DNA of 64,000 bases from Thermosipho japonicus (GTDB lineage: Bacteria > Thermotogota > Thermotogae > Thermotogales > Fervidobacteriaceae), in NCBI RefSeq assembly GCF_014201655.1, contig NZ_JACHEX010000004.1:124001-188000 (forward strand), in the 5' to 3' direction. Below are positions 42,863-46,900 of the stretch, piece by piece. Positions within the stretch are counted from its first letter, which is position 1. Every line of letters begins with the position of its first letter. The notes beneath the pieces were generated by a model that did not search any database, was not told the DNA's origin, and saw nothing but the letters and a program-made list of their open reading frames with translations. The position numbers were made by a program, and so were the translations under genes.

Positions 42863-43480
42863 ATGATAGAAGAAATTAAAAAAATTTATTTTGATGCTAA
42901 AGAACTTGTTGAAAATCGTTGGAATGAATTTTTAAAATTAAAAAACAGTAATGATGAACTTTTACTATTTTCCGAGTTATCCTTTTGTGTTTTAACTGCA
43001 AACTGGTCTGCTTCCGGTGGTATTAAAGCCCAAAAAGAAATTGGAGAAGGTTTTTATACTCTTTCACTTTCTGATCTTGAAATAGCTTTAAAAAAAGTTG
43101 GACATCGTTTCCCTAAAGCTCGCGCAAAATATATATATGAAAACAGGTGGATTGTAGGAAAGTTAATTGATCTTATTAACAGTTATGATGTATATACCTT
43201 AAGGGAATATCTTGTAAAAAACATAAAAGGTATTGGATGGAAAGAAGCTTCACACTTTTTAAGAAATATAGGTTTTTGTGAAGTTTCTATTTTGGATAAA
43301 CATATTTTAAGAATGCTGTATAAATATAATTATATTGATGAAATTCCAAAATCATGGAGTAAAAAAAGATACCTTCAGATTGAAAAAATTTTTAATGAAA
43401 TTTCAAATGAATTTGGTGAATGTCCTGGAAAATTTGATTTATATGTTTGGTATTATATTAAAGGGAAAGTCGAAAAATAG
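42863..43480 (+). CDS. ogg: 8-oxoguanine DNA glycosylase/AP lyase, Ogg2 (archaeal/Thermotoga) type
   Basis: The protein has 205 aa. The helix-hairpin-helix GPD fold is shown by LVKNIKGIGWKEASHFLRNI with catalytic Lys127 and by SILDKHILRML with Asp145. The short length and lack of an N-terminal TBP-like domain match the M. jannaschii / T. maritima TM1821 class rather than Ogg1 or AGOG. It excises 8-oxoguanine and nicks the backbone. Seventeen bp after lpdA, likely cotranscribed with it and with the DUF364 gene that follows. Confidence 0.88.
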   Translation: MIEEIKKIYFDAKELVENRWNEFLKLKNSNDELLLFSELSFCVLTANWSASGGIKAQKEIGEGFYTLSLSDLEIALKKVGHRFPKARAKYIYENRWIVGKLIDLINSYDVYTLREYLVKNIKGIGWKEASHFLRNIGFCEVSILDKHILRMLYKYNYIDEIPKSWSKKRYLQIEKIFNEISNEFGECPGKFDLYVWYYIKGKVEK

Positions 43481-43491
43481 GAGGGATTATT

Positions 43492-44268
43492 CTGACACTT
43501 TCTAAAAAATTATACGACGAAGCTCTTAAATTTATTAACAATGAAACACTTGAAGATTACGTAATAGGTCTTGGCCTCTCTGCAGCTATATTAAGTGATG
43601 GAAGATGTGGTGTAAGCTATACATTACGTGAAGATACTCTCGGAAAATGCGAAGAATTTTTCAAATGTACTGGTGATTTTGGAAACCCAGTAAGCAAGAT
43701 AAATCCAGGAATGAAAGTAAAAGATATCCTAAATATTGGTCTATTTTCTCCTGATCCTTTAATAAGATCTGTTGCTTATGCAACATTAAATGCCGTATTT
43801 TCAACTCCAGAAATTAAAAATATGTATTCTCCAGGCGATCTAAGCCAATATATTAATGTAGGCCTTGATGACACAATAGGATTTATAGGTAGAATTGATC
43901 CTTTAATAAACTCATGGAAACCTAAAGCTTGGGATATATTAATATTCGATAGAAATAGAAAAGGTAGTGATGAAGTTTTACCTGATTGGGCTATAGTTGA
44001 TCTACTTCCCAAATGTTCAGTTGTTGTTATATCAGGTTCTGCGATTGTAAATGGCTCTATAGATTGGATACTAAATTATGTAAAAACTGATAATGTTGCA
44101 ATCGTTGGGCCTTCTACTTCTTTAGCCCCCAATGTTTTTCCAGTTAAATTACTTGCAGGAATTAATGTTTTAAACTCAGATAAGTTATTCAAACTAATAT
44201 CACATGGAGCTGGTACTAAAAAAATCATTGCTGAAAAAGCAGTTGAAAAAGTCGTGTTAGTTCAATAA
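43492..44268 (+). CDS. DUF4213/DUF364-family (putative heavy-metal chelation) protein with a CTG start
   Basis: The protein has 258 aa. The N-terminal half (EALKFINNETLEDYVIGLGL, GRCGVSYTLRED) is the DUF4213 enolase-N-like part. The C-terminal half (WAIVDLLPKCSVVVISGSAI, AIVGPSTSLAPNVF, GAGTKKII) is the Rossmann-like DUF364 part. Family members are often linked to metal or cofactor handling; function unproven. No ATG, GTG or TTG occurs in frame before codon 74 (43711), which lies inside the conserved region. AGGAGGG at 43479-43485 is 6 nt before a CTG at 43492, so CTG is the likely start; ATT at 43489 is the alternative. Confidence 0.78.
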   Translation: MTLSKKLYDEALKFINNETLEDYVIGLGLSAAILSDGRCGVSYTLREDTLGKCEEFFKCTGDFGNPVSKINPGMKVKDILNIGLFSPDPLIRSVAYATLNAVFSTPEIKNMYSPGDLSQYINVGLDDTIGFIGRIDPLINSWKPKAWDILIFDRNRKGSDEVLPDWAIVDLLPKCSVVVISGSAIVNGSIDWILNYVKTDNVAIVGPSTSLAPNVFPVKLLAGINVLNSDKLFKLISHGAGTKKIIAEKAVEKVVLVQ

Positions 44269-44299: not shown

Positions 44300-44327
44300 A
44301 CCCCATCCAATATAAATTGGATGGGGT
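44300..44327. terminator. Hairpin terminator between DUF364 gene and lepB
   Basis: A perfect 12-bp stem ACCCCATCCAAT/ATTGGATGGGGT with loop ATAA. The T run is weak on the plus strand and moderate (TTATTTT) on the minus strand. Confidence 0.7.

Positions 44328-45607: not shown

Positions 45608-46900
<1,293 letters not shown>

Follow-up and report, generated by a model that had tools for sequence, protein, structure and literature searches.

A probable CTG start codon in a DUF4213/DUF364 gene of Thermosipho japonicus, and other apparent near-cognate starts in Thermotogota

In the window analysed here, a stretch of 64,000 nucleotides from the genome of the heat-loving bacterium Thermosipho japonicus (hereafter G000), a gene of the DUF4213/DUF364 family is probably translated from a CUG codon at position 43492 by way of an extended Shine-Dalgarno (SD) sequence, which would give a protein of 258 residues at a low, SD-dependent level. 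We infer initiation at CUG in vivo from the sequence of the site and of its relatives; the CTG is taken as the start of the gene, and the ATT next to it is less likely to serve as such. The features concerned are collected in Table 1.

Table 1. Coordinates, strands and supporting evidence of the features discussed, numbered from the first letter of the window
Feature	Position	Strand	Evidence or remark
8-oxoguanine DNA glycosylase/lyase (Ogg-HhH), ogg	42863..43480	+	PF22175 E 2.5e-66; NCBIfam NF002305
SD sequence AGGAGGGATT with extended motif AGGGAT (AGGNAT)	43479..43488	+	sequence; pairing energy; also in G002
ATT, alternative near-cognate start, less likely	43489..43491	+	in frame, 4 nt past AGGAGG
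CTG, proposed initiation codon	43492..43494	+	same CTG in sister species G001; start column of relatives
DUF4213/DUF364 protein, 258 aa	43492..44268	+	Pfam; orthologues
DUF4213 domain, residues 8-102	43513..43797	+	PF13938 E 3.1e-14; mostly lost with a start at ATG 43711
ATG, codon 74, first canonical codon in frame	43711..43713	+	an ATG/GTG/TTG-only caller would start there (185 aa)
DUF364 domain, residues 120-245	43849..44226	+	PF04016 E 3.4e-27

The DUF364 reading frame is closed by a TAA ten codons upstream of the CTG and is open from there. Between this TAA and ATG 43711 there is no ATG, GTG or TTG in frame, as the initial annotation had claimed, and therefore a gene caller limited to these three codons would drop the first 73 residues; the open reading frame taken mechanically from ATG 43711 indeed has the 185 codons that had been foreseen for automatic callers. 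The AGGAGGG said to lie 6 nt upstream of the CTG was found at 43479-43485, separated from it by the six nucleotides ATTATT. The pairing of this SD with the anti-SD is worth -13.6 kcal/mol. Of the canonical starts tested (699, from 850 kb of sampled genome sequence), some 81% have a weaker pairing. Three features by which a non-canonical site can be recognised are thus found together at this locus, i.e. the absence of a canonical start in frame before codon 74, a near-cognate codon at a conserved column in more than one species (CTG in G000 and its sister G001, and ATT in six more genomes), and a strong, extended SD (AGGAGGGATT) at a proper spacing, 7 nt from AGGAGG to CTG. RNA structure at the CTG start was of no significance (z -0.76), and the sampled stretches contain one tRNA-Met(CAU), which is unremarkable.

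The claim that the sequence from CTG 43492 onward encodes DUF4213 was borne out by a domain match at residues 8-102 (E 3e-14), and both domains of the protein exceed their curated cut-offs (53.4 bits vs 23.5, and 95.3 bits vs 23). Codons 1-73 have 70% identity to the proteins of G002 and G003 of the same genus, compared with 62-65% for the remainder, and their differences from these two species are in excess at third positions, as in coding DNA. Judged from these comparisons, codons 1-73 are protein-coding, match or exceed the remainder in conservation and bear most of DUF4213. It is therefore very unlikely that the product is made from ATG 43711 only, with the upstream part an untranslated relic: that codon is the first canonical one in frame, but it would leave unexplained the protein-level constraint on the 73 codons before it, and the SD precedes the CTG. 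A -1 frameshift in the last part of ogg, giving an Ogg-DUF364 fusion that makes an internal start unnecessary, is highly improbable. The ten open codons of the DUF364 frame do overlap the end of ogg, where there is an A run (AAAAATAG), but the gene has its own conserved SD and start column, relatives have ordinary starts there, and DUF364 lies apart from ogg in other lineages; the fusion was rejected on these grounds.

Structures have been determined for two relatives of DUF364, i.e. 3npg and 3l5o (Dhaf4260), which have in common with the protein studied here the DUF4213 and DUF364 architecture and a putative role in heavy-metal chelation, although the phmmer alignment is limited to the C-terminal domain and the function is putative on both sides. 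In 3l5o, some of the conserved residues at the proposed active site come from the N-terminal enolase-like domain, and a role of DUF4213/DUF364 proteins in metal chelation or as enzymes has been proposed from structure and context (PMC2954201). The product of the T. japonicus gene is likewise a putative metal-handling enzyme. In the genomes of family f5, the DUF364 gene sits behind a solute-binding protein and a two-domain ABC permease, a transporter context that is compatible with the proposed metal-handling role.

Orthologues were sought in 103 Thermotogota genomes, 45 of which have the gene; a single related-locus scan gave one locus only, and one relative with 64% identity is a Thermosipho MAG. 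The start codons of the orthologues, proposed earlier as a check on the CTG, agree with it, as the ATG, GTG or TTG of relatives falls in the CTG column. This column holds ATG in G002 and G003, and TTG, GTG or ATG in other genera of the family, where the codon may also stand one position beside in the alignment. The sister species G001 (92% protein identity) has an identical ATT-ATT-CTG-ACA. The CTG of G000 is thus beyond chance, being common to the sister species and falling in the column of its relatives' starts. A base-calling error at 43492 can hardly be entertained, since the same CTG stands in the independent genome of another species, barring an error common to both genomes. Initiation at the adjacent ATT 43489, or at both ATT and CTG, is a more serious alternative but still an unlikely one. 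The ATT is in frame, adjoins the CTG and is of a kind that appears to start DUF364 in f5 and f7 genomes and infC in G000; however, it lies merely 4 nt past AGGAGG, against 7 nt for the CTG, and it is with the CTG that the start column of the relatives coincides, for which reasons the CTG is preferred.

In six orthologues from families f5 and f7 (G046, G052, G054, G064, G065 and G067), ATT stands where G058 and G066 have ATG; the context is ATG AAC AGA TAC in the latter two and mostly ATT AAC AGA TAC in the former. The ATT of these six lies a few nucleotides downstream of GGAGG or GGGGG, and in 4/6 of them there is no in-frame canonical codon between the preceding stop and the ATT, while G052 and G065 have an in-frame ATG ten codons upstream of it. 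On the protein tree, the CTG appears as a single event on the branch of G000 and G001, and the ATT group, which contains a nested ATG (G066) and a nested GTG (G048), is placed elsewhere; a near-cognate start has therefore been fixed at least twice in the DUF364 family. Altogether the start codons of the family vary among ATG, GTG, TTG, CTG and ATT, and the tree shows 13 or more such changes. In G001, the SD region reads AGGGGTGATT, by which an in-frame GTG arises three codons ahead of the CTG, so that the CTG need not be the start in this species, which may be returning to a canonical one; an ATG/GTG/TTG-limited caller gives 261 aa in G001 vs 185 aa in G000. The SD AGGAGGGATT is common to G000 and G002 and is thus probably ancestral.

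The ogg gene stands directly upstream of DUF364 also in G001, G002, G003, G006, G007, G010, G012 and G014. In G000, its stop codon TAG (43478-43480) overlaps the DUF364 SD and ends 11 nt before the CTG. Termination-reinitiation has been reported for a tight stop/start window of -8 to +6 nt, and a 5-nt stop/start overlap is said to be incompatible with NTG starts (PMC10666635). The DUF364 loci resemble such short overlaps in having a stop near the start, and some relatives overlap directly, as ATTAA in DUF364 and CTGA in an AroB-like gene; on the other hand, the gap of 11 nt in G000 is outside the window and DUF364 has an SD of its own. Moreover, a comparably close upstream stop is found in 48% of the strong-SD genes of this genome. 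The coupling to ogg is for both reasons not distinctive, and a hand-over from ogg in G000 is plausible from the layout. Among the ATT orthologues, stop and start lie within this range in 5/6, the junction of G046 being read by sequence only. The permease stop leads into the DUF364 start as TAA-A-ATT in G052, G065 and G067, and by sequence only in G046, and the two genes form a 5-nt overlap ATTAA in G054 and G064 (loci L023 and L044), which is possible because the start is ATT and not NTG. Downstream of the DUF364 gene in the window, between it and the convergent lepB, there is a strong, bidirectional terminator-like hairpin (44300..44327, +) with a 12-pair stem and a T-rich tail that matches the consensus.

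The mechanism is most likely that described in Staphylococcus aureus, where ribosome profiling in 2026 revealed conserved AUU and AUA starts set by extended SD motifs (AGGNAT etc.), which yield about 10% of the output of AUG (PMC13009471). By this analogy, the strong extended SD helix (AGGAGGGAUU) would position the 30S subunit at the correct distance from the CUG, and fMet-tRNA would pair with the CUG despite the first-position mismatch; ribosomes ending at the ogg UAG within the SD might be handed over locally to the DUF364 start. The output may then be low and SD-dependent, roughly a tenth of that of AUG as judged from the measured S. aureus sites, and would be expected to respond to IF3. 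The S. aureus sites (PMC13009471), i.e. cvfC1 (AUU), ccpN (AUA) and infC (AUA), likewise have a near-cognate codon and a strong AGGNAT-type SD in more than one species, and ATT is found at the DUF364 start in distant orthologues; unlike them, the site studied here has CUG as its codon, belongs to another phylum, keeps its CTG in two species only and is known from sequence.

When 721 genes in 850 kb of this genome were scanned intrinsically for near-cognate starts and the candidates were compared with their orthologues, four more genes remained that have upstream no canonical codon fit for use, i.e. infC, a PLP aminotransferase gene, cbiL and the gene for a TPR protein. In the infC of G000 there is no canonical codon in frame; the gene opens with GGAGGGATGA-ATT, AUU being its apparent start. 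In E. coli, infC starts with AUU and is subject to autoregulation by IF3. The DUF364 gene shares with infC a near-cognate start and an SD, and the scan recovers infC in both E. coli and G000; unlike in infC, no autoregulation is expected at DUF364, since its product is not IF3. When 300 kb of E. coli were scanned in the same way, infC alone stood out with a clear margin. The apparent start of the PLP aminotransferase gene is ATT ATT in G000, ATT ATA in G001 and ATT ATT in G003; at this gene (L249:7188 (-), L308, L309) a strong SD and no canonical start nearby were observed in the three species, with the nearest downstream ATG 11 codons away. The cbiL/cobI-like methyltransferase gene (L194:18928 (+), L218, L219) has an apparent ATA start past GGAGGTGA in G000 and G001; in G003 this ATA is also present, but a GTG stands in frame three codons before it. 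The TPR-repeat protein (L254:6840 (+), L265:18339 (-)) appears to start with ATC in G000 and ATT in G003. The remaining near-cognate sites tested have an SD pairing at or above the canonical median. An AroB-like gene (L226-L231) of family f5 has a CTG start in 6/6 genomes of three genera, which in 4/6 overlaps the upstream stop as CTGA; a fourth genus has TTG in 3/4 genomes, and G062, of a sister genus, has TTA in place of the TTG of its relatives.

With decoy codon sets, many of these genes are flagged again, along with some false ones. The scan thus reveals a missing canonical start near an SD and not the codon used, and our figure of some 0.5-1% of genes with near-cognate starts is for this reason a rough one. 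The rarity ascribed to such starts by the initial annotation holds in general, but not so fully here: in G000 and related genomes a few further genes seem to start with AUU, AUA or AUC, and ATT occurs in the six Thermotogota orthologues above, so that the DUF364 CTG is one of a small class and not a singleton. As candidates for near-cognate starts, pyrC, rseP, rsmE and ruvB were set aside, having an in-frame GTG within or just past the SD. This is a recurring layout, in which GGAGGTG is followed 1-3 codons later by CTG or ATT at normal spacing (ruvB, rsmE, rseP, pyrC and others; loci L250:2178, L253:3739, L253:6295, L253:11684, L272:16293 and L299:2852). The dihydroorotase gene pyrC (L322-L324) has the in-frame GTG within its SD in G000 and G001, is without a canonical codon near its start in G003 (ATT) and G002 (ATA), and has ATG in Fervidobacteriaceae relatives.

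Controls were taken from 30 genomes that have the gene: near the column where the start is expected, a canonical codon stands in 30/30 for an rRNA-methyltransferase-like gene (45608-46174) and in 22/23 for ogg. The exception, ogg of G010, was rejected as a start-less gene, since an apparent one-base indel in this draft genome shifts the GTG of its relatives out of frame. In the ogg of the Thermosipho MAG (L100 / L026 near 2294-2370), the usual GTG is one base out of frame, by an indel in the draft genome or with an ATT start. The trmD gene was left out of the controls, as a motif-based search for its start missed it in several f5 genomes.

As to why a CTG stands at the DUF364 start, we see an about even chance that it reflects tolerated, near-neutral drift and not a regulatory setting, a strong SD being sufficient and the codon wandering among NTG and near-cognate forms. 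The free turnover of DUF364 starts on the tree, and the drift of starts in other genes of the genus, speak for this explanation. However, the retention of ATT across several f5 and f7 genera and the uniform CTG of the AroB-like gene suggest some constraint, and the published rates of start switches to CUG or AUU are of the order of 1e-5 to 4e-4 per gene, though drawn from annotations biased against such starts (PMC5622118).

A wider reading, which we hold tentatively and regard as doubtful, is that in Thermotogota, and above all in this genus, about 0.5-1% of genes start with AUU, CUG, AUA or AUC, which are there either tolerated or put to use, with strong SDs, at sites of which some are conserved between species or genera and some lie in stop/start overlaps including the 5-nt ATTAA; the independent fixation of a weak start at least twice in DUF364 would then suggest selection for a dosage that is low compared with that of the upstream gene and sensitive to IF3. 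A literature search found no paper on near-cognate starts in Thermotogota. The CTG case is a further example of the known non-canonical starts, and its main interest lies in the small, partly conserved class to which it belongs in this phylum. For the gene itself, the correction restores 73 residues that an ATG/GTG/TTG-only caller loses, most of a domain contributing to the proposed active site. Furthermore, the family offers a natural series, in which related genomes have ATG, GTG, TTG, CTG or ATT at the equivalent position of one gene; the cost of a start codon and selection on weak starts could be studied in it. If the wider pattern is true, the stringency of start-codon choice in Thermotogota would be below what annotation assumes, and N-termini of this kind would need to be re-annotated.
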